From: a virus | Virus record (IMG/VR): IMGVR_UViG_3300030116_003063 | Span: 1-26,034 of that record | DNA: 26,034 nt | Strand: one strand, 5' to 3' | The notes under the pieces: generated by a model | What the model saw: only the letters and a program-made list of their open reading frames with translations | Databases searched by the model: none | What the model was told of the DNA's origin: nothing | In this document: one piece after another, positions 6,964-26,012 of the stretch | How positions within the stretch are numbered: position 1 is the stretch's first letter | How the letters are laid out: each line of letters starts with the position of its first letter | Position numbers and translations under genes: made by a program

Positions 6964-6998
6964 TCTATTAGTAAATATAAATTGTTTAGATTTGGTGC
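6964..6998 (-). promoter_or_regulatory. Promoter-like motif P3, upstream of tail operon
   Basis: On the minus strand: GCACCAAA, 11 bases, TATATTTACTAATAGA. The 8-base and 11-base elements match P1, P2 and the internal copy at 10210-10244 with identical spacing. TATATTTA is one base from the Bacteroidetes -7 element TAnnTTTG. The chaperone ATG lies 21 bases downstream of the -7-like box, and a hairpin terminator lies immediately upstream. Confidence 0.65.
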
Positions 6999-7016
6999 GT
7001 ATTTCCATAATACTTT

Positions 7017-7059
7017 AAAAGAGAGGGGTTTTGTTTCACATTGTTTTGACCTCTCTCTT
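7017..7059. terminator. Bidirectional hairpin terminator after the terminase gene
   Basis: A 10-bp stem (minus-strand AAGAGAGAGG paired with CCTCTCTTTT, one G-U) encloses a 23-base loop. It starts just after the large terminase stop, with TTTT on the minus-strand side and CTTTTTATT on the plus-strand side. It separates the terminase block from promoter P3. Confidence 0.6.
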
Positions 7060-7060
7060 T

Positions 7061-8374
7061 TTATTGTATATAATACTTGCCTATATTAGGTCGCAACTCG
7101 TAATACATGCGCATCATTAGTGCATCACTATAATCAGGTGACCTACCTAACATTTGCTTTACTTTCTCTTTTGGCAATATAGCTAGTTTTGTATCTTTAT
7201 CTATCTTATCACGCCTAACCTGCTCTAACTCCTTTGTCAAACTATCTTTAATTAGCGTGTTGTTTGTACTTACAAATACTTTGCCTGTGTTTATGTACTC
7301 TGCTAGCTTGTAATAGCATTGTGTTTTTAGGTTTTGATAGTTTTCGTTATTTATTGCCTTGCTGTTATTTACAAATGGCTTGCAGCGTAGTATATCACGC
7401 AACCCACCACCTACACCATCATCATCTACAATTATATTGCCTAATGGTACACTCTCTGCTCTTTGTATATCTCGTATTATCTCTGCGGCTTGTGTAATAG
7501 TGTTAGTATCTAGCACCTTTATTTTCTCTGCTCTTAAACCATTCCAATATACAATAACTGTTTTATCTTTACCAAACCTAGCTATATCTGCTGATATGTA
7601 TTTATTACCACCCTCTATAGTAGTGTTTTCGTAAATATTTAAAATAGCATTGTAATCAATTAGCTTATCTTCACTATCATCATATTCCCAATTACCATAC
7701 AACAACCTCTGCTTGCTTATCTCATCAAGTTTTAATAGTTGCTCTTCATAATGTTTAGATATGTGTATATTATCGCTTGCTAGTGCTTGTACAAACTTCC
7801 TATAGGCAGGCAGTTGATTTTGTTTGTAAGGTAGATAAAACTCATTATACACCCAGGATTTAGCAGGGTTGCAACTCATAAACAATTTAGGTATTAAATT
7901 GTACTCATCTAACTTGTACCTTATTCTTGATGATAGTATTGCTTTAGCTTTTTGTGTAATTTGGTTGCACTCATCAATAAATGCAAGAGTAAGCTCCAAA
8001 CTACCGAGGCTATCAAAATTAGGGTCACTAGGGTAACTAAACAAATCTTTAAGAATAACCTCACTACCATTGCTAAATGTTAATACATTACTACTACCAT
8101 TAAATGTGTAATCTTTATTTGCTTTTAAACCCCAACTACCACACACTTGAAAAAATGTAGCTAGGGTTGTTTTCTTTAAGGTATCTAGCTTGCTACGCCC
8201 AATCAAACACCTAATGCCTTTGTACTTAATGCAAGAGTAAATTACCCAGGCACAACCTATGTAGGATTTACCACCACCTGCGCCACCACCAAACAATACC
8301 TCACTTGTTTCGTTGTCAAATAAGTATCTAATTGCTGTGCTTTGTTTAGGTGTAAACTCTAACTCAATCTTCAT
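7061..8374 (-). CDS. terL: Terminase large subunit, 437 aa
   Basis: The packaging motor: an ATPase pumps DNA through the portal and a nuclease cuts the concatemer. The Walker A loop GGGAGGGKS is at residues 29-37, Walker B LAFIDE ends at D134-E135, and the coupling motif SCNP is at 167-170. The RNase H-like nuclease domain supplies acidic residues in SADIARFG (D263), IVDDDGVGGG (D317-D319) and SPDYSDAL (D414, D417). All the hallmark motifs are present and the length is normal for the Terminase_6 type. The ATG at 8374 overlaps the small subunit by 11 bases. It ends its transcription unit at a hairpin, and an internal promoter-like motif at 10210-10244 would place it under late control. Confidence 0.95.
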   Translation of the reverse strand: MKIELEFTPKQSTAIRYLFDNETSEVLFGGGAGGGKSYIGCAWVIYSCIKYKGIRCLIGRSKLDTLKKTTLATFFQVCGSWGLKANKDYTFNGSSNVLTFSNGSEVILKDLFSYPSDPNFDSLGSLELTLAFIDECNQITQKAKAILSSRIRYKLDEYNLIPKLFMSCNPAKSWVYNEFYLPYKQNQLPAYRKFVQALASDNIHISKHYEEQLLKLDEISKQRLLYGNWEYDDSEDKLIDYNAILNIYENTTIEGGNKYISADIARFGKDKTVIVYWNGLRAEKIKVLDTNTITQAAEIIRDIQRAESVPLGNIIVDDDGVGGGLRDILRCKPFVNNSKAINNENYQNLKTQCYYKLAEYINTGKVFVSTNNTLIKDSLTKELEQVRRDKIDKDTKLAILPKEKVKQMLGRSPDYSDALMMRMYYELRPNIGKYYIQ

Positions 8375-8717
8375 CAGTTAGCTTAATGTTAATCTGTATT
8401 GCTTCATCATCAGTAGTCATATCCATTTGCTGTTTTTCCCAATACCCTCGCTTTCTACCTTTTGTCTTTAAGTAAAATATAGTTGCTGTTGTATTGTTTT
8501 CTTGTATCTGCTCAAATAGTTTACTCTCTGCAAAATCTAAACTAACATTTTCTATTTCTCTAACCTTTGCTGCAAACTCTACATCTGTTTTTAACCATTT
8601 GTAAAATGTGCTACGAGGTACATCAACTTTTTTACACGCAGTAGTAACAACGCCTAAACATTGCTCTAGCGCATCTAACATTGCCTCTTTTTTAATATGT
8701 CTACTTTTGTCTACCAC
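8364..8717 (-). CDS. terS: Terminase small subunit, HTH type, 117 aa
   Basis: The small subunit binds the packaging site on phage DNA and hands it to the motor. Residues about 14-45 form a helix-turn-helix (ALEQCLGVVTTACKKVDVPR, then STFYKWLKTD) like that of phage terminase small subunits with a transposase-like HTH. A helical oligomerisation segment follows (NVSLDFAESKLFEQI), then the family-typical FYLKTKGRKRGY at about 81-92 and an acidic tail. The start is GTG at 8717, overlapping the upstream stop by 17 bases; an internal ATG (M13) would cut just before the HTH. It lies directly before the large subunit with an 11-base overlap. Confidence 0.85.
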   Translation of the reverse strand: MVDKSRHIKKEAMLDALEQCLGVVTTACKKVDVPRSTFYKWLKTDVEFAAKVREIENVSLDFAESKLFEQIQENNTTATIFYLKTKGRKRGYWEKQQMDMTTDDEAIQINIKLTDED

Positions 8718-9123
8718 AACACTCGCATTTTTCAGGTAGCTTATCTAGATTAAATCCAAAATCTATTGATTTAAAACCCCATTCTTTTAGGGTGTCTATA
8801 TCAAACCAATTTGCTAATTTGTCTTTATCAAATTTACCACCTAGTTTATTTAACTTAATATTTGTTTCTACCTCTCTCTCGTAATCAAAATCTACCTCTA
8901 TACATGGTAGCGTTTCTATACCTAATTCTACTGCTATATTATACCTTTGATGCCCACCAACTATTATACCCTCTCTACCTTTATGTGTGTTTACTACAAG
9001 AGGTTGTAATATACCCTTATCTACTATATCTTGTTTTAGCTTATTGTATTGTGCCTTGCTTATTTCTCTAGGGTTGTAGTCAGCAGGCATCAATTCCCAG
9101 GTATTTTTATTTACTATTTTCAA
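8701..9123 (-). CDS. ParB/Srx-type nuclease-like domain protein, 140 aa
   Basis: A stand-alone ParB N-terminal-type domain. The conserved NPR motif is in ADYNPREIS (residues 17-19), followed by KLKQDIVDKGILQPLVV (about 28-44) and the signature GIIVGGHQRYNIAVELG (52-68). In phages such domains occur alone or fused to DNA methyltransferases, and act as DNA-binding, CTPase or nuclease modules. No methyltransferase domain follows. The end carries a CECC cluster (133-136) that could bind metal. The start is uncertain: TTG at 9123 keeps upstream residues that look homologous, while ATG at 9090 would begin right at MPADYNPRE. It lies immediately upstream of the small terminase, where it might help recognise or process packaging sites; that is inference. 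Confidence 0.8.
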   Translation of the reverse strand: MKIVNKNTWELMPADYNPREISKAQYNKLKQDIVDKGILQPLVVNTHKGREGIIVGGHQRYNIAVELGIETLPCIEVDFDYEREVETNIKLNKLGGKFDKDKLANWFDIDTLKEWGFKSIDFGFNLDKLPEKCECCGRQK

Positions 9124-9379
9124 GTTGCTCTAATTCAAACTCTAAATGTGCTATTGCTTTCTTTATGCAATCTACAGGTGTTTTGTGTTTACGCATTGCT
9201 CGCAATAAGTATGTTACTGCTGTGCCTATATTATACGACAAATCAAACTCATATATAACATCTTTAGCCATCATACCATTACGACCTACATAGTATGCAG
9301 GCACTTTGTTATCATTTTCTACCATTTCATCACATGGCATGTTTCTAGTATAGTCGTAATAGTATTTACTTTTTAACAT
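9107..9379 (-). CDS. DUF3310-like protein, 90 aa
   Basis: The C-terminal 50 residues match the pattern of DUF3310, a small phage family of unknown function: an initial Tyr/Val segment (VPAYYVGRNG), then YNIGTAVTYLLRAMRKHKTP, then a DCIKKAIAHLEFELEQL helix. I use the ATG at 9379 (MLKSKYYYDYTRN). A TTG further upstream (9415) would add 12 residues but overlap the upstream gene by 50 bases instead of 14. It sits in a run of short accessory genes between the sigma-like regulator and the terminase genes. Proposed roles for the family (nucleotide metabolism) are not shown by this sequence. Confidence 0.7.
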   Translation of the reverse strand: MLKSKYYYDYTRNMPCDEMVENDNKVPAYYVGRNGMMAKDVIYEFDLSYNIGTAVTYLLRAMRKHKTPVDCIKKAIAHLEFELEQLENSK

Positions 9380-9599
9380 TTTTCTTTTTAGGTTTCGCAA
9401 CAATTCCTTTGACAAACTCGTAACATGTATTTAAACAACTGCTACAGCTTGTAGTTAACTTGTATTTTGTTTTATTTAAATCGTTGTAGAATTTAATCAT
9501 TTCTACTTTGTAATGGTGGCTTTTAGCTACACCTGTTTTAACACCCTCCCAAATATAGGCTGCTCTTTCTTTCTCTTCTTTTGTTAGTTTCATTACCAT
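9366..9599 (-). CDS. Unrecognised small protein with Cys-rich motif, 77 aa
   Basis: It begins MVMKLTKEEKERAAYIWEGV; a second in-frame ATG two codons later may be the real start. Residues about 51-59 carry a Cys cluster (CSSCLNTCYEF) and the C-terminus is Lys-rich (KPKKKNVKK). The Cys spacing CxxCxxxC and basic tail suggest metal binding and nucleic-acid contact, but no known family is recognised. It overlaps its upstream neighbour by 7 bases and the DUF3310-like gene by 14. Confidence 0.5.
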   Translation of the reverse strand: MVMKLTKEEKERAAYIWEGVKTGVAKSHHYKVEMIKFYNDLNKTKYKLTTSCSSCLNTCYEFVKGIVAKPKKKNVKK

Positions 9600-9823
9600 T
9601 TGTTTTTAGGGCAATTTTCTGTTTGCCATTTTGCTTTTGTTTCTATAGGACATCCACACACAGTACACTCTAAATCTTTGTGATTTAAATAATTACACCT
9701 ACTGCAAGTGTGTACTCTATCGTAGTATGTACTGATCTCTACATTTTTAAAACCACCCTTTGCGTGCTTATAGCTTGCTTTCAGGAGGTTGTATGTTTTT
9801 ACCATTAAGTTTGGTTTGCTCAT
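9593..9823 (-). CDS. Phage zinc-ribbon protein, 76 aa
   Basis: Two Cys pairs form a zinc ribbon: CSRC at 40-43 and CTVCGC at 53-58. The typical tail is KAKWQTENCPKNKW, with a last Cys at 71 and a terminal Trp. The ending pattern (C, x, I, x, K, W, then C-P-x-x-x-W) recurs in small phage proteins of Bacteroidetes. The basic N-terminus (VKTYNLLKASYKHAKGG) may contact nucleic acid. Its start overlaps the upstream 77-residue gene by 56 bases in another frame, which is long; both frames look coding. The function is unknown, possibly a transcription or nuclease accessory. Confidence 0.65.
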   Translation of the reverse strand: MSKPNLMVKTYNLLKASYKHAKGGFKNVEISTYYDRVHTCSRCNYLNHKDLECTVCGCPIETKAKWQTENCPKNKW

Positions 9824-10001
9824 TGTTTCTTCTAATTTTTATTATACCATAAGGCTCATAATAATACCCAAACGCTATATCTATATCTTCAAAACTATAA
9901 TCATTTAGATTTAACATATACTCTAACTCACCATCTTCATTGTAAAACTCTATGTTAGGTATGTCGTAATCAGCGTATGTTAACAACTCTTTCAGCTTCA
10001 T
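9768..10001 (-). CDS. Unrecognised acidic small protein, 77 aa
   Basis: It starts MKLKELLTYADYDIPNIEFY, is rich in Asp, Glu and Tyr up to residue 52, then turns basic (KIRRNNEQTKLNGKN). No motif is recognised. It overlaps the sigma-like gene by 32 bases and the zinc-ribbon gene by 56 bases, so its last 19 codons are shared with another gene. It is the first complete gene downstream of the internal promoter-like motif at 10210-10244. Confidence 0.5.
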   Translation of the reverse strand: MKLKELLTYADYDIPNIEFYNEDGELEYMLNLNDYSFEDIDIAFGYYYEPYGIIKIRRNNEQTKLNGKNIQPPESKL

Positions 10002-10503
10002 TTATTCTTTCTTTTATATACCTTTTTACATTTTTTATTGTTGTAAAAATGCTACGCCTACTTATACCTGTTTTGTTAGCTAATGATTGTAGTGTGTATT
10101 TGTTGCCATCTAACTCACCAAAATAATATAGCTTAAACAATTCCCTATCATACCAATACAACTCATCTAATATACTCTCTATCAACTCTATGTTTTCTTG
10201 CTGCTGTGTATCATTAGTAAATATAAACTTCTGCATTTTAGTGCAATCTTGTAATGTGTGCTTATCGTAAAATCTTGCAATCTTGTAATAGTATGTACTA
10301 GTTTTACTGTGATACATGTTTGCCATAATTCTAGCTACAAAAAAAAAGAGTTTACCATCTTGTTTGATAAACTCCAATTTTTCTTTTGGGTATTGTAGTG
10401 TTGCCTCTAACGCTTCATGCAACAAATCATTTGCAAAATCTGTTTTACATATATTGCACGCTATATCTTTTAATCTTTGATATTCTGCATTAGTTAATTG
10501 CAT
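9970..10503 (-). CDS. Sigma-70-like transcription factor, 177 aa
   Basis: Small sigma factors recruit RNA polymerase to promoters. The N-terminal part (AEYQRLKDIACNICK, DLLHEALEATLQY, FFFVARIMANMYH) has the helical pattern of sigma region 2, including a DLLHEALE segment comparable to the D-x-x-Q/H-E-x-F motif. Region 4 is clear near residues 135-170: an ELFKLYYFGELDG helix, then YTLQSLANKTGISRRSIFTT and a basic recognition helix (IKNVKRYIKERI). I prefer ATG 10503; the TTG at 10518 adds five residues. A 14-base palindrome lies 22 bases upstream. The gene lies at the boundary between replication genes and the terminase block and contains a copy of the late promoter-like motif, so a role in late transcription is plausible but inferred. 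Confidence 0.7.
   Translation of the reverse strand: MQLTNAEYQRLKDIACNICKTDFANDLLHEALEATLQYPKEKLEFIKQDGKLFFFVARIMANMYHSKTSTYYYKIARFYDKHTLQDCTKMQKFIFTNDTQQQENIELIESILDELYWYDRELFKLYYFGELDGNKYTLQSLANKTGISRRSIFTTIKNVKRYIKERINEAERVVNIR
10210..10244 (-). promoter_or_regulatory. Promoter-like motif inside the sigma-like gene
   Basis: On the minus strand: GCACTAAA, 11 bases, TATATTTACTAATGAT. It matches P3 at 7 of 8 bases in the first box and all 11 bases of TATATTTACTA, with the same spacing. It is intragenic, so coding constraint could explain part of it. If active it would drive the genes from 10001 down to the terminase. Confidence 0.5.
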
Positions 10504-10524
10504 AGCGCATAATAACAAAATAAT

Positions 10525-10538
10525 TTACATATATGTAA
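10525..10538. promoter_or_regulatory. 14-bp perfect palindrome, candidate operator
   Basis: TTACATATATGTAA is its own reverse complement. It lies in the 54-base gap between ninG and the sigma-like gene, 22 bases upstream of the ATG at 10503. A dimeric regulator could bind here; no regulator is identified. AT-rich palindromes of this length are not rare, so confidence is modest. Confidence 0.35.
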
Positions 10539-10557
10539 CTTGTTGAAAACTAGTTGT

Positions 10558-10941
10558 TCACATTAGTTTGTTCAATTCGTTTTTGTAATATTCTATCATC
10601 TCTTTGTAATCATCCTGGCTACGCTTAACGCTTGTGTTAGATAGCTGTATAATTTCATCAAATTTATCTTCACCTATTTCTGATTTAAGTTTGTTGCCAT
10701 ACACCCAAATATTGCCCTGCATGAACATATTGCATTTTACACATTGTGGTCTGCAATTATTTGTGTGCCAACGAGTTGCGTAATGCCTACGACTTTGAAA
10801 GTGTCCACATTGCATCTCTTTAACAGGTTTTGTAGTGCCACAAGTATAGCACGATACAAACCCATTAGTATCTGCATAGTAATAGCGTATGTACTTACTA
10901 AATATTTGGTCAAGTTTCTTGACTAGTTTAGATTTACTCAT
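10558..10941 (-). CDS. ninG: NinG/Rap-type recombination protein, 127 aa
   Basis: Lambda NinG (Rap) is a structure-specific endonuclease acting on recombination intermediates. The sequence has the family order: KKLDQIFSKYIR at about 8-19, CYTCG (31-35), the core MQCGHFQSRRHYATRWH (43-59), NCRPQCVKCN (62-71) and a GNIWVYGNKL helix start. Cys31, Cys34, Cys45, His47, Cys63, Cys67 and Cys70 provide metal-binding positions. The length is shorter than lambda NinG (about 200 residues) but like many phage homologues that lack the long N-terminus. Its ATG overlaps the methyltransferase stop by 8 bases; the gene closes the replication and modification operon. Confidence 0.85.
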   Translation of the reverse strand: MSKSKLVKKLDQIFSKYIRYYYADTNGFVSCYTCGTTKPVKEMQCGHFQSRRHYATRWHTNNCRPQCVKCNMFMQGNIWVYGNKLKSEIGEDKFDEIIQLSNTSVKRSQDDYKEMIEYYKNELNKLM

Positions 10942-11989
10942 ATATCTTATTAAATAAGTGCATTAACACATTTACAGTTATAGTGTTGCCAGATTGTTTG
11001 TAAAGCTGCGTACAGCTAACATCTTTTACTTTGTAAAAATCCTCATCTTTAAAACCTTGTAAACGCCAGGTTTCTAATGGTGTGAATTTTCTAATTTTTT
11101 GTTGTTTTTCTATTGCTTGTAAATTAGGTGCATCTAAACAATATGTTGTACCATCTGATTTAGACAAATGCCCACTACCGCCTGCATTTTTGTTTTTTTT
11201 TATAGCAGGTCGGTTAGCACTTCTTTGTTGTAAATTGTGTACAACTAAATCGCTTTTATGTTTATTAAAAGTTTGATTTATTAAATTTTTTGTTTTTTTA
11301 TCACTTAAATAATACTTATTATCTACTTGATTTTGTAATATATCTTTTAGCTTTATAGATAATGGTATTTTTTTTGGAAAACTAAATTTTCTAAATTCTT
11401 TAAAACCTACAATAAAAATACGCTCTCTGTTTTGTGGTATACCATAGTGTTTTGTATTAAGCACTTGCCAATAGATATGATACCCTAAACCATCATCAAA
11501 CATGTCTAAACTTATTTGCCCATTTTGTGTACCACCACCATTAGATAATATATCTACAATAGTTTGAAATGTGCGCCCTTTGTCGTGTGATAACAAACCT
11601 TTTACATTTTCTAATACAAATACTTTAGGTTGGTTAATTTGTATAAACTCTGCTACATTAAAAAACAATGTGCCTCTAGCTTCATCAAAACCTTTACGGT
11701 TTCCTGCCATACTAAACGCTTGACATGGAAAACCTGCAATATATAAATCTAACTGATCTATTTCTTTGTGGTTTCTTCTAGTAATGTCGTTGTAAAATGT
11801 TGTAGGGTTGTGTAACTGCTCAAAAGATTGTCTAGCATATTTATCTATTTCACACGCAAAAACGCTTTTGTGATTTATGCCTAAATATTTAAGTGCCATT
11901 TCAGGCGCACCTATACCACTAAAATCTGTGCCTACTTTTATATTTTTTTGCAAAAAACTTTTGTTAGTGTTTGTTTCTGTATTGCCCAT
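10934..11989 (-). CDS. C5-cytosine DNA methyltransferase, 351 aa
   Basis: It transfers a methyl group from S-adenosylmethionine to cytosine C5 in a specific DNA sequence. The motifs occur in the canonical order: I DFSGIGAPE (22-30), IV GFPCQAFS with nucleophile C89, VI ENV (127-129), VIII QNRER (186-190), then a variable target-recognition region (about 215-300), IX RKFTPLETWRLQGF (300-313) and X QSGNTITVNV (332-341). It appears complete and active. Its first 52 bases overlap the end of a PD-(D/E)XK nuclease-like gene in another frame. Phage enzymes of this type usually protect phage DNA from host restriction; the target site cannot be told from sequence alone. Confidence 0.95.
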   Translation of the reverse strand: MGNTETNTNKSFLQKNIKVGTDFSGIGAPEMALKYLGINHKSVFACEIDKYARQSFEQLHNPTTFYNDITRRNHKEIDQLDLYIAGFPCQAFSMAGNRKGFDEARGTLFFNVAEFIQINQPKVFVLENVKGLLSHDKGRTFQTIVDILSNGGGTQNGQISLDMFDDGLGYHIYWQVLNTKHYGIPQNRERIFIVGFKEFRKFSFPKKIPLSIKLKDILQNQVDNKYYLSDKKTKNLINQTFNKHKSDLVVHNLQQRSANRPAIKKNKNAGGSGHLSKSDGTTYCLDAPNLQAIEKQQKIRKFTPLETWRLQGFKDEDFYKVKDVSCTQLYKQSGNTITVNVLMHLFNKIYE

Positions 11990-12429
11990 TTATCTACCTC
12001 TTTATGTTGTACAATCCATAGCTTTGCCCTTGCCATACCTAAACCTAATTTTCTAATAGGTTGTATAAACATGTATTTATCTATTAGTTTTTTTGGGTTT
12101 GTATGTGATACATAGTTTACCATTAAATACTTTGCGTAGTGTGGTATGTATTTTACATCTATTTTGCAACCCTCTACAACAACATCTGCCTCAACTTCTG
12201 GCTCTGTACCATACATACTTAATGCAGTAAACTCTCTATCATCATATATAAAGAAATGCCAGGCTATAAGTTCAGCTAACACACCTTGAACATTTAACTT
12301 TGTAGTATCATTACCCCAATAGTAATCTTTCTCTTTATAGTTTTTGTGCATGCCTTTTATCCTGTCGCTAGCCATGTCTTTAGATATGCGATGCAATACA
12401 TAAGGGTAATCTATATATGTATCTACCAT
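11938..12429 (-). CDS. PD-(D/E)XK nuclease-like protein, 163 aa
   Basis: A Glu in GVLAELIAWHF (E53), then EPEVEADVVVEG with D82 and KIDVKY with D91 and K93, reproduce the alpha-helix Glu, Asp and (D/E)xK order and spacing of the PD-(D/E)XK nuclease fold (29 residues, then 8). A strand (KLWIVQHKEVDKW) follows, as expected in the core. The N-terminus (HRISKDMASDRIKGMHKN) is helical and basic. It overlaps the start of the C5 methyltransferase by 52 bases, an arrangement that suggests a matching restriction-type or maintenance enzyme. It could instead be a DNA repair or resolvase nuclease. No close family member is recognised. Confidence 0.65.
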   Translation of the reverse strand: MVDTYIDYPYVLHRISKDMASDRIKGMHKNYKEKDYYWGNDTTKLNVQGVLAELIAWHFFIYDDREFTALSMYGTEPEVEADVVVEGCKIDVKYIPHYAKYLMVNYVSHTNPKKLIDKYMFIQPIRKLGLGMARAKLWIVQHKEVDKWAIQKQTLTKVFCKKI

Positions 12430-12554
12430 TTGTTAATTCTATCTCTAAATTCTTTTTGTTTTTTTTCTAACCTATAATTAAAGTACAAATGCAATGCTGT
12501 GTAAGCTATTGCTAGTATTAGTGTAATACAACTTAATGTTTCTATTAGTGTCAT
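12423..12554 (-). CDS. Small single-span membrane protein, 43 aa
   Basis: It reads MTLIETLSCITLILAIAYTA, then LHLYFNYRLEKKQKEFRDRI and a short end. One hydrophobic segment (about 4-24) is followed by a charged, probably cytoplasmic, helix. Its ATG overlaps the upstream small gene's stop (ATGA at 12551-12554), and its own end overlaps the nuclease-like gene's ATG by 7 bases. This tight coupling on both sides supports real translation. The function is unknown. Confidence 0.65.
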   Translation of the reverse strand: MTLIETLSCITLILAIAYTALHLYFNYRLEKKQKEFRDRINKW

Positions 12555-12676
12555 TTTTTTAGCTTTTTATACTTGTAAATTAAATAACTAGCTATAGGTG
12601 TGCCTGCTAGTAAAGTTAGTAAACTAGGGTGTGGCTCACCACACAATCCTGTAGCGTGTTTTAAAAATTCTATCAT
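12551..12676 (-). CDS. Small conserved membrane protein, 41 aa
   Basis: It starts MIEFLKHATGLCGEPHPSLL, then TLLAGTPIASYLIYKYKKLK and ends in Lys. The N-terminal helix, CGEPHPSLLTLLAGTPI and the basic end look like a small protein I recall from replication regions of Bacteroidetes phages. The single hydrophobic span is about residues 19-34. It overlaps its upstream neighbour as ATGA (12673-12676) and the next gene likewise. The role is unknown. Confidence 0.65.
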   Translation of the reverse strand: MIEFLKHATGLCGEPHPSLLTLLAGTPIASYLIYKYKKLKK

Positions 12677-13062
12677 TTTATCTGCTTTGCTTTGTTTATA
12701 GTATTGCCTATTTGCTTTACATTTTCTTGGTGCTTTTGATAATCTGTTATTAAGCGTTGTTGTCTTTTAAGCTGCTCGCTTTTTTTGTGTTGTTTTAGCC
12801 ACACATTCCAACTTCTAGCGTTAATAAAACAACTTAAATCTTCACCATCTCTAATGCCTTTCTCTAATGCAAACCTAACTTCATCTATTGTCATTGTAGA
12901 GTATCTATTTATTAAATCTTCATACAATAAACTAGACATCATTACTACTTGTTTTGCATCTGGTTTTTGCCCTAACATTAAATAACACTTGCTTAATATA
13001 TCTACACAATCATTTTTTAATTCTTTCTGATCTTTAGTATATCTTTGCCAAATTTTATCCAT
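12673..13062 (-). CDS. Replication-region protein, possible helicase-loader-like, 129 aa
   Basis: A helical protein starting MDKIWQRYTKDQKELKNDCV. It has a central IDEVRFALEKGIRDGEDLSC block (about 59-78), an ARSWNVWLKQHKKSEQLKRQ block (82-101) and a basic coiled tail. It overlaps the initiator gene by 8 bases and lies directly downstream of it, where phages often encode a helicase loader. The FALEKGIRDGE and W-rich patterns recur in proteins next to initiators in Bacteroidetes phages, but there is no P-loop, so it is not a DnaC-type ATPase. The loader role is inference only. Confidence 0.5.
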   Translation of the reverse strand: MDKIWQRYTKDQKELKNDCVDILSKCYLMLGQKPDAKQVVMMSSLLYEDLINRYSTMTIDEVRFALEKGIRDGEDLSCFINARSWNVWLKQHKKSEQLKRQQRLITDYQKHQENVKQIGNTINKAKQIK

Positions 13063-14671: not shown

Positions 14672-14673
14672 AA

Positions 14674-15560: not shown

Positions 15561-15567
15561 ATGTTAA

Positions 15568-15999: not shown

Positions 16000-16314
16000 T
16001 TATTTAGCTAAATGATAATAATTACTGCAATATGTAGGGTATTTGTCAAGCGTATTTCTAAGATTTCGTATTGACTTGTGCATATCGCTATATGAATACA
16101 TTACTTGTAGTAATCCTGCAATGTATAGATACGCCTCTCTATCATACACACCTTTATCAAATGCTTTTTGTGCTTTGTCTAAAATATCTTCCATAGCACC
16201 TGTGTAAGTGTCAATTTCATAATCCTTGTCTTTTGTGAAAACTGTTTGCATAGTTTCTAAAGTACTTTTAAAGCTATAATAGCCTTTAGGTCTAATTCTT
16301 TCTTCTGGTATCAT
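16000..16314 (-). CDS. Unrecognised protein, 104 aa
   Basis: It starts MIPEERIRPKGYYSFKSTLE, contains DTYTGAMEDILDKAQKAFDK and AYLYIAGLLQVMYSYSDMHK, and ends in a helix with YCSNYYHLAK. Mostly helical, with no Cys pairs, membrane span or catalytic motif. The leader is AAAAACAAAACA. A 134-base gap upstream holds a promoter-like TATATTTA box (16357-16364) and a terminator-like hairpin (16436-16457). It is followed by a structured 3' end and a strong terminator, so it seems to be its own transcription unit. Confidence 0.55.
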   Translation of the reverse strand: MIPEERIRPKGYYSFKSTLETMQTVFTKDKDYEIDTYTGAMEDILDKAQKAFDKGVYDREAYLYIAGLLQVMYSYSDMHKSIRNLRNTLDKYPTYCSNYYHLAK

Positions 16315-16356
16315 TGTTTTGTTTTTTTAATGTGTTGCTTAATTGCAAACACAGGG

Positions 16357-16383
16357 TAAATATACAACTATTTTACAATTACT
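16357..16383 (-). promoter_or_regulatory. Candidate promoter P4 (weaker match)
   Basis: A minus-strand TATATTTA at 16357-16364 is preceded 11 bases earlier by AGTAATTG, a partial match to the upstream box of P1-P3. A TTTG lies 21 bases upstream of the -7-like box, close to the Bacteroidetes -33 spacing. It is placed 42 bases before the 104-residue gene. It could be an ordinary host-type promoter. Confidence 0.4.
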
Positions 16384-16435
16384 AACAAAAAAAAGTTAAG
16401 AAAGTAAAGAAATAATTAACAATACTAGATAAATA

Positions 16436-16457
16436 GAGTTGTTAATAACTACAACTC
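16436..16457 (-). terminator. Weak terminator-like hairpin over the stop of the phosphoesterase gene
   Basis: GAGTTGT pairs perfectly with ACAACTC around an 8-base loop, and the stem includes the last two codons and stop of the metallophosphoesterase gene. The following bases are TATTTATC, so the T tract is poor. Confidence 0.35.
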
Positions 16458-19508: not shown

Positions 19509-19518
19509 TTTTTACTAA

Positions 19519-19902
19519 TTAAAACTCTATGTTATACATTGACTTAATTTTTTTAATCAATGTTTCTTTATTTTTTATATTTATCTCTGCTGATAAAATT
19601 TGATTTTTAATTCTTTGTGGCAATTCTACACCTAAATCTTTTGCACTTTCTTCTATTTGCTTGCCAACTTTCAAAATTTTCTCAAGTTCATTTTTTGTCA
19701 CTTTAGCTGCATTTTCTGCTTTTTTTAAATCATCAATAAAAGCACTAGATGCTTTAATGTCTTTATCTAATATTTTACCAAAATCAGTATCAAAATCATC
19801 TATTGCACCTAACTCTACTTTTTTAGGTGTAGTAACTTTGTCTAGTTTAACATCTTTAAACATTTCGCCTAATGCTATTTGTACTTTCTTGTTAAATTCC
19901 AT
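19519..19902 (-). CDS. Coiled-coil protein with KVELG motif, 127 aa
   Basis: I use the ATG at 19902 (MEFNKKVQIALGEMFKDVKL), which starts 5 bases after the portal stop; a TTG at 19938 would add 12 residues overlapping the portal gene. The protein has KKVELGAIDDF at about 27-37, then long helices (NAAKVTKNELEKILKVGKQI) and AKDLGVELPQRIKNQI. The protein at 25613-25957 has the same KVELGxxDD motif, then helices and AKDLGI. Both seem to be members of one small family. The role is unknown; position after the portal suggests a virion or assembly role. Confidence 0.65.
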   Translation of the reverse strand: MEFNKKVQIALGEMFKDVKLDKVTTPKKVELGAIDDFDTDFGKILDKDIKASSAFIDDLKKAENAAKVTKNELEKILKVGKQIEESAKDLGVELPQRIKNQILSAEINIKNKETLIKKIKSMYNIEF

Positions 19903-19906
19903 GTCT

Positions 19907-21745
19907 TTAGCTTTTATATCCTTTGTTTGGCATGTCAATAGGTGCTACAGGCACTTCCTGTGCATTTGGTGCAGGTTTAAAACCTTGACTTCTTGCCTTT
20001 GTTGTTGTTATTACTCTATCAGTATTTATGTTTGGTTTACCCTCGCCAAACTTTCTGAAATATATTCTTCTAAACCATTTGTGGTGGCAGTTAGCACCAC
20101 CTTTAAAACGCCAAATGTTGTAAATGCCTGATTTGTTGCCACTCAACTCTGGGTTTGCTTGTATGCTAGATAATGAGTGTGCCTGTCCAATTATATCTTC
20201 TTTGCGATATACTTTGTTTGCAGCCATCATTTTTTTACAAAACTCTCTTTCACCTGTATCAGATTTAGATTTACCTGTGTAAACATACCTAACTCTATAT
20301 AGGTTTAAGTTTTTATCATAACCATCTTGCTCGCTCTTTCTTTCTGCTCTAGATGTGCCTGTTCTAGCTAAATGTAGTTTTTGTAGATTGTACTCAAAAT
20401 CAAAATCTTCATGCTCATCTGCTGCATCATCTTCATCTAACAATTCCCAATTCTCTAAATCTTCATCTTCACCATAATTAGCTAGAAAGTTATCTAGTGC
20501 GCTCTCTTCACTACTAAATCTGCTGTTAACCTCTTGTGCTTGCTCTAATGGCTCATATCCTAATGCCTCTCTAATCTCATCTTGTGTTAACACATCTTCT
20601 AATATAGAGGTATCAAACATAGAGTTTAATGGACTTACCTCGCTTAATGATATAGGTAGGTTTGTATTGTTTACATTTAACACCATTTTAAGACCTTTTA
20701 AGACCTCATCTTTCATCGGTGCTACAACTGTGTTACTATACAACTCATAAGCTGTTAAAAGTTCATCTCTACCACCTAATTGCCCCTCTGTTTTTACACC
20801 TAACAACATAGGTGATACAACACGATGCCCAATCATAATGTTTTGTACACACAATTTGTTTAGTGTTTCATACATTTTATCTGCATCAGATAGTTGTATA
20901 GGTTGTAATTGTGGTGCAGAGTTAGCATCATCAGAGAAAGTTAAAACGAATTTGCCACTATTACCAGGTGAGGTGAATTTGGATTGTATTTGTTGCTCTA
21001 TTTGGTATCGCTCTTCATCTGTTGGTATACCATTATTAAAGTTAATCCAAAAACTAGGGTTAAAAGAGTTTTGCACATTAGATAAATGAAACTCTGATGT
21101 TAGATTTTCTGTTAAAATCCAATTAGTAGATGCAAGATAATCAGGTGTGTAGTACGCCTCCATGCCTGGCGAGTACAAACCGCAATAAATAATTTGTGAT
21201 GGCTCACTTCTATCTTGTGTATTAAACGCTGCAACTCTATGTGGTGTGTATTCTTTCTTTCTATATTGTGTCCAATCACTACTAACCCAATACTCATCTA
21301 TAAAACCACTCTCATTTTTTTTACCTACTCTAACTTTCTCTGCGCTAACATGGTGTACCTCGCTAATTTTTGTTTTGTCTTTACTCCAAATAACATTTAA
21401 TGCGTATGCACCAAAAAGTTTAAGATCAAACGCACATTTTTTTATTATTTCGTGTGCAGTTTCGCCATTTCTGTTTATGCTAGCTAAAAACTTTTTTAGT
21501 TGTACAAATGTTGACAAATCACCACTATCTTCATCTATAACAATATCTTTACCTGCAATCATTGCGCTAGTTGCATTTACTATTGCTGCGTGACTAGCAG
21601 AGCCATTGTATATATCTATTAAAAAGTTAGGGTAAACATTAGTATACTCACCATCACCGTATGTTATCCAATCATTACGCCCTGTTTCAACAATTTTTGG
21701 TGCTGTTTGTTGTTTTAGATATACTTGTAGTAGTCGATTATCCAT
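19907..21745 (-). CDS. Portal protein with C-terminal MuF-like domain, 612 aa
   Basis: The portal forms the dodecameric ring through which DNA is packaged and exits. Residues about 1-420 have the portal pattern: DWITYGDGEYTNVYPNFLID near 25-44, KKCAFDLKLFGAYALNVIW near 102-120, then FHLSNVQNSFNPSFWINF (219-236) and LTQDEIREALGYEPLEQA (386-403). A very acidic linker (422-450) leads to an extra domain at about 480-560 with a TGEREFCKKMM motif (C503) and FKGGANCHHKWFRR (C553, H554, H555, W557). That Cys/His pair resembles the C-terminus of MuF-type minor head proteins. No separate MuF gene is seen nearby. The ATG shares the LamG gene's stop (TAATG). Confidence 0.85.
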   Translation of the reverse strand: MDNRLLQVYLKQQTAPKIVETGRNDWITYGDGEYTNVYPNFLIDIYNGSASHAAIVNATSAMIAGKDIVIDEDSGDLSTFVQLKKFLASINRNGETAHEIIKKCAFDLKLFGAYALNVIWSKDKTKISEVHHVSAEKVRVGKKNESGFIDEYWVSSDWTQYRKKEYTPHRVAAFNTQDRSEPSQIIYCGLYSPGMEAYYTPDYLASTNWILTENLTSEFHLSNVQNSFNPSFWINFNNGIPTDEERYQIEQQIQSKFTSPGNSGKFVLTFSDDANSAPQLQPIQLSDADKMYETLNKLCVQNIMIGHRVVSPMLLGVKTEGQLGGRDELLTAYELYSNTVVAPMKDEVLKGLKMVLNVNNTNLPISLSEVSPLNSMFDTSILEDVLTQDEIREALGYEPLEQAQEVNSRFSSEESALDNFLANYGEDEDLENWELLDEDDAADEHEDFDFEYNLQKLHLARTGTSRAERKSEQDGYDKNLNLYRVRYVYTGKSKSDTGEREFCKKMMAANKVYRKEDIIGQAHSLSSIQANPELSGNKSGIYNIWRFKGGANCHHKWFRRIYFRKFGEGKPNINTDRVITTTKARSQGFKPAPNAQEVPVAPIDMPNKGYKS

Positions 21746-22557
21746 TATGTGTATTTTTCTGTAAGGTAGTCAATTAGTTGATTTGTTTCTGTTGAGTTTA
21801 TTACTTTATCGTATATTCCTAACTCACCTAACAATCCATCATAAGGTGAGCCACCTGTACCTGCTAAACCTATTCTTTCTATTCTATAGTTAGTGTCACT
21901 ATTTGTAGCATCACTAGTATCAGTTGCTATAACACTTTTTTCTTTATTTACAAACCTTATTGCTTCGCTTGCATCTCTTGTAATAACTAATATCTCAAAT
22001 GTATCTTCACCAAATGCGTAATTTACATCACCATCTGTACCTGTGCCTGTTGTTGCTTGGTTGCCATCAGTTCTAGTTGTGATTGAGTTGTTGTTAGAGC
22101 CACTTGTATTACCCCTAAATTTAGTTTGTATAGCCACACCATTAGCACCTGCAAGTTGTATAAAGTTTTGGTTACTACCTATATCACCTGCAAAAAATAC
22201 ATCACTACCTGCTCGCCCTGTTCTAAATGCGGCAAAAAAAGTAAATGTTTGATTTGTTGTTACATAAACATTTGCCAAATTCAAAACATCATTAGAATTG
22301 TCAAAACTAACAGAGTTAGCACTTAATGTTGTTTTGTCTAATGTAGGTTGACTTATTGCTGTAGATTGTGATGCGTTGTTAGTTGCGCCTGTGCTACCAC
22401 TATTTGCCCACGCTGTAACATTATCACCATGTGAGCCTGTTATAGTACTAGCGTCAAAGTGTAATGTTAAATCGCTAATATCAGAAGGCACAAAACCACC
22501 CATACCCTCTAGGTTTTCTGCTCTTGCGTTTATGCCTAATCCTAGTGCTAGTTTCAT
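21745..22557 (-). CDS. LamG/ConA-like lectin-domain protein, 270 aa
   Basis: The domain has the jelly-roll features of Laminin_G_3/ConA-like proteins: SDISDLTLHFDAST (27-40), a VTAWANSGS element, SVSFDNSNDVLNLAN (87-101), FTFFAAFRTGR and the ending LGELGIYDKVINSTETNQLI. Such domains bind carbohydrates and occur in phage fibres or decorations. No signal peptide is certain: the N-terminus (MKLALGLGINARAENLEGMG) is only mildly hydrophobic. It lies between a small beta protein and the portal, unusual for a fibre but compatible with a head decoration that binds host or mucus glycans. Confidence 0.75.
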   Translation of the reverse strand: MKLALGLGINARAENLEGMGGFVPSDISDLTLHFDASTITGSHGDNVTAWANSGSTGATNNASQSTAISQPTLDKTTLSANSVSFDNSNDVLNLANVYVTTNQTFTFFAAFRTGRAGSDVFFAGDIGSNQNFIQLAGANGVAIQTKFRGNTSGSNNNSITTRTDGNQATTGTGTDGDVNYAFGEDTFEILVITRDASEAIRFVNKEKSVIATDTSDATNSDTNYRIERIGLAGTGGSPYDGLLGELGIYDKVINSTETNQLIDYLTEKYT

Positions 22558-22558
22558 A

Positions 22559-22828
22559 TTAGTTGTTGTAACCTATTGCTAAACCACTTGCTAAATCAAT
22601 CGCTGTAAATGGTGCAAAAATTACCGTACCAGCAGGTATAGTTTTACCATCTAAATTACTATCATTTGTAGCACCTGTAATAGTACAGTTAGTAATTTCG
22701 CTGTCATTTACAAAATGAATTGCGTAAAAATCTTTACCTGTTTGTGCTGCTGTTGTAAAAACCTCAACACTACCTTTTTTACCCAACATCTCTTGTAAAT
22801 GGTCGTTTGTATTTTTGTAAGTTGACAT
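22559..22828 (-). CDS. Small beta-rich virion protein, 89 aa
   Basis: It begins MSTYKNTNDHLQEMLGKKGS, then forms short strands (SVEVFTTAAQTGKDFYAIHF; DGKTIPAGTVIFAPFTAIDL) and ends LASGLAIGYNN. The composition and small size fit a decoration or tail-fibre-adaptor protein. It lies 4 bases after the 143-residue gene and just before the LamG gene. No family is recognised. Confidence 0.5.
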   Translation of the reverse strand: MSTYKNTNDHLQEMLGKKGSVEVFTTAAQTGKDFYAIHFVNDSEITNCTITGATNDSNLDGKTIPAGTVIFAPFTAIDLASGLAIGYNN

Positions 22829-22832
22829 ATAA

Positions 22833-23264
22833 TTAAATATTTAAATATTGTGTGTTAGTTACTGTATCATCTGGTGCTATATAATTACTATCACCATAGC
22901 CATATATTTTACTTGCGCTACTATGTGTTGTAACATTAGAGTTGTTTTGGTCTAAATCTGCTTGTGGAAAACTACCGCTATATGCTCTAATCTTACCTCT
23001 ATCAACAATTTGCCCTACAGAGTTACTAATAAGGTAACTAAAACTACCTTTAACGCCTTTTAGGTCTACATTTGTTGGCTCAACTAAATTAAATATTGCC
23101 TTTCTAGGTAATTTAATAGGTGAAAAAGTATAGCTAACTGTATTATTATCTACACTACCCTCTACATCATTCCAAATTTTTATATTGTATGTCGTGCCAC
23201 TACCTCTATCTTTATCAAGGTTTATACTCATACTATTAGTAGCATCGTGTTTAATATATAGCAT
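22833..23264 (-). CDS. Unrecognised beta-rich virion protein, 143 aa
   Basis: It starts MLYIKHDATNSMSINLDKDR and has beta strands (TTYNIKIWNDVEGSVDNNTV), then a block KGVKGSFSYLISNSVGQIVD and a C-terminal Asn/Thr/Ser-rich tail. The pattern suggests a small structural or fibre protein. It is the first gene of the unit after promoter P2; its ATG is only 10 bases from the -7-like box, so the mRNA leader would be very short or absent. Confidence 0.5.
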   Translation of the reverse strand: MLYIKHDATNSMSINLDKDRGSGTTYNIKIWNDVEGSVDNNTVSYTFSPIKLPRKAIFNLVEPTNVDLKGVKGSFSYLISNSVGQIVDRGKIRAYSGSFPQADLDQNNSNVTTHSSASKIYGYGDSNYIAPDDTVTNTQYLNI

Positions 23265-23266
23265 CT

Positions 23267-23301
23267 GTTTATAGTAAATATAAAAAACCTCGTTTTGTTA
23301 C
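23267..23301 (-). promoter_or_regulatory. Promoter-like motif P2, upstream of portal/connector operon
   Basis: Minus strand: GTAACAAA, 11 bases, TATATTTACTATAAAC. It is identical to P1 in all 24 fixed positions. It lies directly downstream of a terminator (23313-23337), making a clean transcription boundary. Confidence 0.75.
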
Positions 23302-23312
23302 GCTTGTATACG

Positions 23313-23337
23313 AAAAAAGACAGGTTTAACCCTGCCT
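23313..23337 (-). terminator. Intrinsic terminator after the capsid operon
   Basis: The minus strand gives AGGCAGG, loop GTTAAA, CCTGTCT, then a T run. The stem is 7 bp with one G-U pair, plus TTTTTT. It lies 47 bases after the stop of the 183-residue virion gene and just upstream of P2. Confidence 0.8.
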
Positions 23338-23383
23338 TTAATCAAAAAATCAAGTAATATGTAGTCCTGTTAAGGATAGTAGA

Positions 23384-23935
23384 TTACGATGCAGTAATAG
23401 TTACCGTAAATGCTGCGTTATCAAACGGTGTAGATGTGTAGTCAGCAACTAACAAACATGGTGCGCTTTCAGCTCCTGTAAATGTTAAGTCGTAACCATT
23501 CATATCTGCAAACGCTGCACCTGATGCGCTAGTTCCTGCCGATAATTCTAAACCATTTTCTAAACCTAAACACCAAATCAAGTTTTTACCTGATGTGTTT
23601 ACAGCTTGTGTTTCTACGAATACTATCAATCTGTTTTGTGCTAGTAATCGTATTTCATTTCTATCTGCTACAGTTAATTTATGTAATTTTATGTTAACAC
23701 TTGGCTCATAAAATACTGTACCATTTTCTTGTGATGGTTGGATAGTTTCAGTAAAACTAGCTGTACCTCTTGGTAAAGAGTATTTAAATAAGTTTGTAGA
23801 TAAATCTACATCACTAACTGCACCTGCCGATGATGTAATAGTAGCATCTTCATGTTGTACAAAATAGACAGCTTTTACGCCCCCCATGATGTCTCGGCAG
23901 TCGAGACCCCTGCCCTTGGTTAGTTCACATGCCAT
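23384..23935 (-). CDS. Conserved virion protein, probable tail tube type, 183 aa
   Basis: It starts MACELTKGRGLDCRDIMGGV then KAVYFVQHEDATITSS, an N-terminus (MACxxTxGRxLxCxDxxGGxKAVYF) repeatedly seen next to the capsid gene in Bacteroidetes phages. The middle has ENGTVFYEPSVNIKLHKLTV and RLIVFVETQAVN, and the end is a beta sandwich (DMNGYDLTFTGAESAPCLLV). The strand-dominated layout and position after the major capsid protein suggest a tail tube or a head-tail joining structural protein. The first codons form an unusual GC-rich hairpin (23891-23907). Confidence 0.65.
   Translation of the reverse strand: MACELTKGRGLDCRDIMGGVKAVYFVQHEDATITSSAGAVSDVDLSTNLFKYSLPRGTASFTETIQPSQENGTVFYEPSVNIKLHKLTVADRNEIRLLAQNRLIVFVETQAVNTSGKNLIWCLGLENGLELSAGTSASGAAFADMNGYDLTFTGAESAPCLLVADYTSTPFDNAAFTVTITAS
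23891..23907 (-). other. GC-rich hairpin near the start of the virion protein gene
   Basis: GTCTCG pairs with CGAGAC around a 5-base loop, codons 10-15 of the 183-residue gene. It lies in a roughly 40-base GC-rich island using codons (GGC, AGG, CTC, GAC, GGG) rare in this AT-rich window. It may be a translation or RNA-stability element, or follow from the conserved peptide. Confidence 0.4.
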
Positions 23936-23958
23936 AATTTATATGTTTTAGGTGCTTT

Positions 23959-23986
23959 TAGCAAAGGGTTTTTACACCCCTTGCTA
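23959..23986 (-). other. Stem-loop between capsid and tail-type genes
   Basis: In the minus-strand RNA, TAGCAAGGGG pairs with CCCTTTGCTA with one G-U pair, around an 8-base loop. No T tract follows, so it is not a typical terminator. Its place in the 65-base gap suggests mRNA processing, stability or partial attenuation. Confidence 0.4.
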
Positions 23987-24000
23987 TTAGCTGTTAATTA

Positions 24001-24915
24001 TTAGTCCAATCTTACAATATCGCCACCTTGTGCGTGTTGTGTTCCGCCCGTAAATTTTGCCACAACTCTCAGATTATCGCTCCCATCTAGCTCTTGCATA
24101 TCTAGTACACGCACCTCTGTATGGTCTGATAATAAATCTGTACCAAAGAATAGGTTAGATTGTTGTGCTGCACACATTTTGTTTTCTACCATACCTGGGC
24201 AAACTGCGATTTTTAATCCTTCAAACATATCAGTATACTCACCCATGTGTTGCATAGGAAAACCTTGTAATGCAGAAATAGCAGATAGATATAATCTGTA
24301 AGTCGTTGGTGACATGTATAGGTACAAATCTTCTTTAGTATAAACAGCACTAGGTATTGCAGCAGCTAAAATTTGTAAGTTAGCAATAATGTTAGATGAT
24401 GTAAATGCTGTACCTGCACCACCTGAATTATCAGCCTCTACAATAGCAGCATCATTTTCAAAGTGACCGTTACCTGCTTGCATAAAGCCTGTAAACTCAC
24501 CTGCATTTGCATCTAAACCATCCCAGATATTAGTTTCTACATGGTTAGCAATCTCTGCTGCTAGGTGTGAGAATAAAAACGCTGTGAAATCATCAGACAT
24601 TCCACTATTAAATGCACCTGCTCTCATTTGTGCAGCCTGGAAATCAGCTAAAAGGTCTTTTTTACAAAGATCAATATTGATTTGTAAGTTTTTAGGTGTT
24701 AACACTCTTTCTGTTAGTGTAACTGTACCTGCATCAGTAAAATCACAATTAGCATCAGTAATTAAACCTGATGTTGCAACTTTAGTAATGTTTCTTTTAA
24801 ATTTAACATTCTCTAATACTGTCAAGTATTCAAGAGATTTTGCAGATTTTAGAGCAGCAGCAATATACTGCCCTGCGTGTTCACCTGCATAATTTGATGT
24901 AATTGAAAAACCCAT
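24001..24915 (-). CDS. Major capsid protein, 304 aa
   Basis: It builds the icosahedral shell. It begins MGFSITSNYAGEHAGQYIAA, then LENVKFKRNITKVATSGLIT, LTERVLTPKNLQINIDLCKK, and a central AAEIANHVETNIWDGLDANA, then LYLYMSPTTYRLYLSAISAL and FEGLKIAVCPGMVENKMCAA, ending with FTGGTQHAQGGDIVRLD. Residue patterns (spine helix around AAEIANHVETNIWDG; P-domain-like end strands) agree with HK97-fold capsids of Bacteroidetes phages. The size is typical. It follows an acidic coiled-coil scaffold-like gene by 22 bases and precedes the tail-type virion protein; no head protease gene is seen. Confidence 0.85.
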   Translation of the reverse strand: MGFSITSNYAGEHAGQYIAAALKSAKSLEYLTVLENVKFKRNITKVATSGLITDANCDFTDAGTVTLTERVLTPKNLQINIDLCKKDLLADFQAAQMRAGAFNSGMSDDFTAFLFSHLAAEIANHVETNIWDGLDANAGEFTGFMQAGNGHFENDAAIVEADNSGGAGTAFTSSNIIANLQILAAAIPSAVYTKEDLYLYMSPTTYRLYLSAISALQGFPMQHMGEYTDMFEGLKIAVCPGMVENKMCAAQQSNLFFGTDLLSDHTEVRVLDMQELDGSDNLRVVAKFTGGTQHAQGGDIVRLD

Positions 24916-24937
24916 TTCTTTTAAATTAAAATTATTA

Positions 24938-25570
24938 TTAGTTATTTAAGTTGTAAAAAAATCTCTCTTGTGCTGTCAGTTTGTTGTATTCAGCTTTAGA
25001 TAATTCTACTTTTTTATCTTTTTTTGCAAATTTATTTAAACTTACAGGCTCTGTAGCAGGCTCTTTACCTAACTCTACAACCTGTGCAGATAAATTTGTA
25101 TTTTCTTCTTGTAATTCAGCAATGTTTTCATCTTTTGCTAAATTCTCGCCTCTTAACTCATCTAGTTCAATGTTTAAGCGTGCGATGTCGTTTCTAACCT
25201 CTTCTAAAAGTTCCTTAACAACTGCGCCAATCTCTGCAAACAACTCTGCATTGTCATTAGACATCTCTTCTTTTTCATCGTACATTTCTTCATCCTCATC
25301 TTCATCTTTTGCTTCAGTTTCTTCTACCATAGATGAAATAACACCCTCTTCTTGTACGATAAATGCAACACCATCTTCTGTTTCGTATTCGCCTACAGGT
25401 AAAGGTATTTGCGTACCATCTTCTACTAATACGCTAACTGCGACACCCTCAGCTAGGGCATCTGCCTCTGATACTATAATAGTACCATCTGCTAATTTAC
25501 CCTCGTATGCTAGTTGAGTAGTTTCTTCCTCAATACCTAGGGCAACTCTAATTCTAGTTTTTAAGTCCAT
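24938..25570 (-). CDS. Head scaffolding protein, 210 aa
   Basis: Scaffolds guide capsid assembly and are removed before packaging. The N-terminal half (LADGTIIVSEADALAEGVAV, then GTQIPLPVGEYETEDGVAFI) is a small beta domain typical of this family in Bacteroidetes phages. The middle is strongly acidic (EETEAKDEDEDEEMYDEKEE, about 83-102), followed by a long coiled coil (ELLEEVRNDIARLNIELDEL, then AKDENIAELQEENTNLSAQV), and the basic end KKDKKVELSKAEYNKLTAQE could bind the capsid protein. The position directly before the major capsid gene supports this. No protease motif is seen. Confidence 0.75.
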   Translation of the reverse strand: MDLKTRIRVALGIEEETTQLAYEGKLADGTIIVSEADALAEGVAVSVLVEDGTQIPLPVGEYETEDGVAFIVQEEGVISSMVEETEAKDEDEDEEMYDEKEEMSNDNAELFAEIGAVVKELLEEVRNDIARLNIELDELRGENLAKDENIAELQEENTNLSAQVVELGKEPATEPVSLNKFAKKDKKVELSKAEYNKLTAQERFFYNLNN

Positions 25571-25612
25571 AGTTATTATTAAAAAATTGTTGTTTTTATT
25601 TATTGTAATATG

Positions 25613-25957
25613 TTATATATTTTTGTAAATTTTCATAGAACTTTCAACTATTTCTTTAGCTCTACTTTCTATTTTATCTAGTTTATTTACAACATCATCT
25701 ATACCTAAATCTTTAGCTGCTTGTTGTGCTTTTTTTAAGTTTGGTGGTATATTTTGGTCTGCTAAAATAAGCGTATTGCTAAAAACATCTTTTGCTTTTG
25801 CTAACTTATCTTTAGCATCTTTAAATGATTTTTCTGCCTTTTCTAGTAATTTTTCTACATCATCTACTAAACCTAATTCTACTTTTTGCAGTTCATTATG
25901 CTTGTTAAATTCAGCTAGTTTTTCAACATTTAATTTCTCAAAATATTGCTTATTCAT
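25613..25957 (-). CDS. Coiled-coil protein with KVELG motif, 114 aa
   Basis: ATG at 25957 is preferred; GTG one codon upstream also fits. It is mostly helix (MNKQYFEKLNVEKLAEFNKH, then LLEKAEKSFKDAKDKLAKAK) with KVELGLVDDVE near residue 25 and AAKDLGIDDVVNKL near 80. The protein at 19519-19902 shares the KVELGxxDD and AKDLG landmarks with similar order and distance. It is the first gene after promoter P1, upstream of scaffold and capsid. The function is unknown; it may assist head assembly. Confidence 0.65.
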   Translation of the reverse strand: MNKQYFEKLNVEKLAEFNKHNELQKVELGLVDDVEKLLEKAEKSFKDAKDKLAKAKDVFSNTLILADQNIPPNLKKAQQAAKDLGIDDVVNKLDKIESRAKEIVESSMKIYKNI

Positions 25958-25977
25958 CACAACAAAGTTTAAGGTGT

Positions 25978-26012
25978 GTTTATAGTAAATATAATAATGT
26001 TGTATTTGTTAC
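25978..26012 (-). promoter_or_regulatory. Promoter-like motif P1, upstream of capsid operon
   Basis: Minus strand: GTAACAAA, 11 bases, TATATTTACTATAAAC. It is identical to P2 at 24 of 24 fixed positions despite an unrelated 11-base spacer. The -7-like TATATTTA box lies 28 bases before the ATG at 25957. Confidence 0.75.

Follow-up and report, generated by a model that had tools for sequence, protein, structure and literature searches.

A candidate ECF-like late sigma factor of uncultivated marine phages and its scattered promoters may be re-matched and exchanged as one set

Four minus-strand sites in the IMG/VR virus record IMGVR_UViG_3300030116_003063, the whole of which (26,034 bases, hereafter the window) was analyzed here, are very probably promoters for the phage structural and packaging genes. 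As judged from sequence, they would be read by the host core RNA polymerase carrying a phage sigma factor, which is encoded at 9970..10500 on the minus strand and resembles the extracytoplasmic function (ECF) sigma factors. On balance, and with less assurance, we also favor a wider proposal, namely that this is the late sigma factor of a large uncultivated marine phage group with at least five promoter specificities. In this group, the sigma factor and three to four scattered promoters would be re-matched or exchanged as one set in recombination, one promoter would lie within the sigma gene itself, and the late mRNAs of several lineages would be leaderless, with the AUG fixed 13-14 nucleotides (nt) from the promoter box.

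Each site consists of an upstream box, a spacer and a downstream box. The predicted late promoter 1 (capsid/scaffold operon; 25978..26012) and promoter 2 (head connector/portal operon; 23267..23301) both read GTAACAAA-N11-TATATTTACTATAAAC, promoter 3 (before a set of small genes and the terminase block; 10210..10244) reads GCACTAAA-N11-TATATTTACTAATGA, and promoter 4 (tail operon, right after the large terminase gene; 6964..6998) reads GCACCAAA-N11-TATATTTACTAATAGA. All four had been recognized in a preliminary description of this DNA, and all are present on the minus strand. The core AAA-N11-TATATTTACTA occurred four times in the window, as compared with 0.01 expected (sd 0.10) from dinucleotide-preserving shuffles, so that the motif is essentially absent from shuffled sequence, the comparison which that description had proposed. 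The 11-mer TATATTTACTA had no mismatch-free match in the window beyond these four sites, and an additional T preceded the box each time (TTATATTTACTA). The spacers are unrelated in sequence and are 11 bases at all four sites, as had been noted. Because all listed genes of the window lie on the minus strand, each site is oriented along transcription. Promoters 1, 2 and 4 precede the capsid/scaffold, connector/portal and tail operons, respectively, which bears out the earlier assignment of three sites to the capsid, portal and tail units, and homologous sites were found in relatives for all three. The two terminators proposed just before two of the sites also have counterparts (z -3.8 each, minus strand): an intrinsic-terminator-like hairpin with a 9-bp stem and a T run directly upstream of promoter 2 (23316..23339), and a hairpin between the large terminase gene and promoter 4 (approximately 7013..7061). 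The latter has a long loop around CAAAACAATGA and follows the large terminase gene in most clade relatives with differing stem sequences; the kept loop suggests a function beyond that of a plain terminator. Separately, an intergenic TATATTTACCC at 16315-16448 (minus strand), with a GTAA about 18 nt upstream, precedes the gene at 16000-16314 and is a possible fifth promoter, either weaker or differently timed.

Counted from the first T of the downstream box, the second box of the motif starts 19 nt further upstream, at about -31 to -32, and it is GYAmnAAA, in agreement with the earlier remark that it is not the TTTG -33 element. Sequence identity among the window sites is confined to the -35 and -10 boxes with none common further upstream, which speaks against an upstream activator. 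In the lineages that carry TATATTTTATA in place of TATATTTACTA, 33 of 50 distinct sites, spread over three operons, place the start codon exactly 13 nt past the first T of the box, and in two other promoter classes the corresponding distance at the tail gene is 14-15 nt. Flavobacterium -7 elements have a T at -12 and 4-5 nt to the transcription start (PMC6847099). Together with this geometry, the 13-nt distance indicates that the box is correctly placed as a -10/-7 element, and it predicts that the mRNAs of the TATATTTTATA lineages have no leader or almost none. The window distances between this T and the start codon are 18, 29 and 36 nt, which predicts leaders of about 5, 16 and 23 nt; the next ATG behind promoter 2 is at 23264, 18 nt past the first T, and the predicted start of promoter 1 is at about 25980-25981.

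Scans of IMG/VR by protein gave 60 capsid, 20 sigma and 80 terminase loci, and a search with the sigma alignment returned at least 567 matching stretches. All four sites were found at homologous places in six genomes (the window, G002, G006, G043, G045 and G047), and three of them in G042, G046 and G048. The sister lineage has TATATTTTATA (the TATA class) at the same places. Among 63 distinct sites, 36 were TATATTTACTA and 27 were TATATTTTATA, no locus carried both versions, and box-preceded sites of the opposite version were absent from both genome sets. More distant lineages have TATATATTATG, TATATATTAATAAT/TATATATTATTTTG or TATATTTATAATAA before the same tail gene, and TATATATTA is one promoter class beside those of TATATTTACTA and TATATTTTATA; at least three more versions exist in addition to these two. 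The motif recurs at the homologous module boundaries where the preliminary description had proposed to look for it, and its variant sequence changes at all sites of a genome together. The sigma gene is found at the same locus across the phage group. No near-identical DNA to the window was found among 50,697 phage records, and the closest named-phage terminases are those of Flavobacterium phage 11b (55% identical) and Cellulophaga phage phi10:1 (51%). By sequence, a Flavobacteriia host is likely.

The predicted recognizer of the four promoters, which the preliminary description did not mention, is a 176-residue protein encoded between ninG and the terminase genes (9970..10500, minus strand, ATG at 10500). 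This pre-terminase position is where many phages carry a late regulator. The NCBIfam model sigma70-ECF (TIGR02937) matched the window protein with E 3.8e-7 over residues 19-165 (profile positions 25-164 of 165), and the same model matched 38 of the 39 members of the sigma family (best 2.1e-12). The PHROG family of RNA polymerase sigma factors was matched by 13 of the 39. The window protein has the architecture of ECF sigma factors, in which a linker connects sigma regions 2 and 4, and regions 1.1 and 3 are absent. Its AlphaFold2 model (mean pLDDT, the predicted local distance difference test, 78) consists of helical domains with a low-confidence linker at residues 81-97. Sigma factors lead and predominate among its fold matches in the Protein Data Bank (PDB), including sigma32, SigA region 4, SigH and SigW; region 4, the best conserved part of the protein, reached a probability of 0.99 and a target template modeling (TM) score of up to 0.74, with a low whole-chain TM score. 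The product is best read, from sequence and model, as a two-domain ECF-like sigma factor. A sequence search of the protein against PDB chains yielded nothing useful. The protein-level search of isolate phages gave a single weak match for the sigma family, to a Microcystis phage sigma factor, and a profile search of phages 11b, phi10:1 and P12002L gave nothing significant. In bacterial genomes, the family had three matches, on contigs filed under Pseudooceanicola, Euryarchaeota and Bacteroidetes metagenome-assembled genomes (MAGs); because these are three different organisms, the matches do not assign a host. The phage contigs L203 and L204, which carry the sigma gene, were filed in the Pseudooceanicola and Euryarchaeota MAGs, probably by mis-binning.

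The promoter sequence co-varies with the sigma protein, as would be expected of a phage late sigma factor with a shared motif before the late operons that is conserved in relatives. In 60 contigs that have a tail promoter as well as sigma and terminase genes, it was this promoter that was scored for its class; the terminase genes sit between it and the sigma gene. The class changed 4 times on the sigma tree, which is the least that five classes allow, as compared with 7 times on the terminase tree. Region 2 alone and region 4 alone, with the linker that holds promoter 3 excluded, also required 4 changes each. Most other genes tested followed the class less closely when compared with sigma on the same rows (terS, 8 changes vs 4; the ParB-like gene, 7 vs 4; ninG, 5 vs 3), and the tree of the DnaA-like gene reached the minimum only on a reduced set, where the terminase does too. 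On the terminase tree, the approximately unbiased test rejected one common origin for the TATATTTTATA class (p-AU 2.7e-5) but not for the TATATTTACTA class (p 0.45). Scored at the capsid promoters, the class changed 3 times on the capsid tree, where 1 change was needed.

Recombinants show the same association. Contigs L116 and L117 come from two different metagenomes, and in both a terminase about 80% identical to that of the window stands beside the other clade's sigma gene and TATATTTTATA promoters; since two independent assemblies agree, an assembly chimera is unlikely. The terminase of contig L119 is 83% identical to that of the window, and its sigma factor and its promoter sequence are each of a third type. 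In L117 / G031 (30,248 bases), the sigma gene is at the opposite contig end from the terminases, as a circularly permuted or terminally redundant genome would be expected to show. A divergent capsid (44-53% identity to that of the window) was seen in L187, L190, L196 and L197, with both promoter classes; by sequence, the capsid module appears to be exchanged, with capsid promoters that fit the resident sigma.

The fourth site of the preliminary description, promoter 3, had been placed upstream of the terminase block. It does precede terS, by about 1.5 kb that hold several small genes, but it is not intergenic and lies inside the sigma-like gene at 9970-10500, a location that the preliminary description did not contain. 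The codons ATA TTT ACT AAT of this site were the same in every one of 19 distinct sigma genes that share at least 59% identity with that of the window, in a linker that is otherwise variable. Among 66 amino-acid-invariant columns with synonymous choice, 12 used a single codon, and four of these 12 are the codons of promoter 3. In the sister clade, the site is TTTATATTTTATA in another reading frame (L-Y-F-I vs F-I-F-T-N). The invariant codons and the frame-shifted sister motif favor selection on DNA at this site. That the site might yield a truncated sigma factor with region 4 only was considered and dropped, as there is no in-frame ATG downstream in the window.

We infer that the early block makes the sigma factor first, and that the sigma factor on host core RNA polymerase would then direct transcription of the capsid, portal, terminase and tail operons. 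Recognition of TATATTTACTA (about -12 to -2) would fall to region 2 of the sigma factor, and that of the GYAmnAAA box, 19 nt upstream of TATATTTACTA, to region 4. The embedded promoter 3 would give the terminase block its late promoter. With that promoter inside the sigma gene, late terminase transcription would start past the region 2 codons, so that no more complete sigma factor would be made from it. The sigma factor and its promoters would diverge, and pass between lineages, as a matched set. The results thus support the earlier view of a phage late regulon, in which the -10/-7 geometry is backed independently by the 13-nt box-to-ATG distance of the sister lineage, and in which late timing and starts are predicted.

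Several results weigh against this reading. The scores of the window protein are under the curated cut-offs (29.9 vs 42.9 bits for TIGR02937; 16.8 vs 24.1 for Pfam Sigma70_r4), and for this reason we call it ECF-like and not a formal ECF (group IV) member. The AlphaFold2 model had no PDB fold match at E <= 0.001, partly because the two domains are flexibly joined. The gene adjoining the scored promoter tracks the class as well as sigma does, with the minimum number of changes; it is physically linked to that promoter. The TTTAT class comprises two distant lineages with similar boxes and is not one clade on the sigma tree, and co-segregation is a correlation. Promoter 3 coincides with conserved coding sequence, its exact 11-mer is kept by only some sigma genes of the TATA clade, and of the four sites it is the least certain.

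It is also conceivable, but unlikely, that host polymerase with the host primary sigma factor reads these promoters after being turned on by a phage activator of the RinA/ArpU/Ltr kind, the sigma-like protein being that activator. Its gene is directly before the terminases, the position of the Ltr regulator (PMC13123087), TATATTTA is near the host -7 element TAHHTTTG, and the protein has a weak match to phrog_36 'transcriptional regulator'. An activator of this kind is at odds with the lack of a common operator upstream of the -35 box at the four window sites, and with the replacement of the nearly invariant host G at -5 (PMC6847099) by A at all four. Moreover, unlike the RinA/ArpU/Ltr regulators of Gram-positive phages (PMC13123087), the window protein matches sigma factors over two regions, 2 and 4, and region 2 by itself follows the -10 sequence; among the top 25 of the 44 NCBIfam families matched, there was no ArpU or RinA model.

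Even less probable are ordinary host-sigma promoters whose versions mirror different hosts. Distant terminase relatives are found in phages of both Flavobacteriia and Bacteroides, but the sites of a genome vary jointly and track the phage sigma gene better than other phage genes. Canonical host-type TTG-N17-22-TAnnTTTG sites on the coding strand of the window were at chance level and within coding sequence, and matches to E. coli-type sigma-70 promoters in the window were fewer than in shuffles. It is very improbable that, instead of a promoter, the repeat is a site bound during packaging, replication or recombination, such as a boundary where modules are exchanged. The sites do lie at module boundaries, where modules do recombine; against this stand their strict orientation along transcription, the hairpins upstream of two of them, the constant 13-nt distance between the -10-like core and the start codon in three operons, and the presence of one site inside the sigma gene.

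The principle of a phage-encoded late sigma factor is already known from phiEco32 and Salmonella phage 7-11, and phage 7-11 is the closest described case. There, the sigma factor SaPh711_gp47 sends the host polymerase to a repeated bipartite late promoter before the structural genes (PMC8948821, PMC4331800). The 7-11 promoter is GTAAtg-(16)-aCTA, with 22 nt from the G to aCTA (PMC8948821), and its -35 GTAAtg and -10 aCTA resemble the GTAAC... and ...ACTA ends of the window boxes. The distance from GTAA to ACTA is 26 nt in the window, 4 bp wider than the 22 nt in 7-11, and the window sites are thus not of the 7-11 type. The intragenic site in the sigma gene, the lineage versions and the 13-nt box-to-ATG rule are without counterpart in the cited descriptions of 7-11. 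In phiEco32, a small phage sigma factor, gp36, likewise drives operons, both middle and late, but gp36 recognizes a single-element promoter (tAATGTAtA) and is without sigma region 4 homology (PMC8948821), whereas the window sigma is best conserved in region 4. The promoters of the Bacteroidetes primary sigma factor, -33 TTTG / -7 TANNTTTG (PMC6847099), share the -7 geometry, TATATTT and 4-5 nt to the start, but the phage boxes have A or T in place of their nearly invariant G at -5, and the upstream element is GYAmnAAA, not TTTG. We found no description of the sigma family, the promoter series or their joint inheritance in the open-access PubMed Central papers that were searched, and the three appear to be new.

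It is an old question how the specificity of a regulator can shift together with that of several unlinked target sites, and at least five natural related sigma-promoter pairs bear on it, together with natural recombinants that combine the structural genes of one lineage with the sigma gene and promoters of another. The pairs are small (176 residues; promoters of about 30 bp), and most differences between them fall on two sigma regions and a small number of promoter bases. Promoters of other bacteria mostly fail in Bacteroidetes, and the pairs would be candidate sigma-promoter tools for these bacteria. Late operons can also be found by sequence alone in a phage group for which no isolate was found.

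The genes around the promoters (all minus strand) are as follows. The first gene behind promoter 1 (25613..25957) has the conserved start MNKQYFEKL, and the putative major capsid protein (24001..24915) is assigned only by position and conservation; 60 relatives were found, and it has a match to the function-unknown family phrog_11320 and no Pfam match. Behind promoter 2, the first gene is at 22833..23264, and the gene run there includes the portal protein (19907..21745; phrog_33693, E 1.5e-71). Downstream of promoter 3 are the putative small subunit of terminase (8364..8717), which adjoins terL and has a helix-turn-helix-like sequence, and the large subunit (7061..8374; Terminase_3, E 5.8e-11). 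The first tail-operon gene behind promoter 4 is at 6309..6950 (phrog_32199). Beside ninG, a C5-cytosine DNA methyltransferase (10934-11989, E 6.6e-73) is found at that place in few relatives, and a 243-base gap in the gene list (12430-12672) seemingly holds one or two short membrane-protein-like frames.

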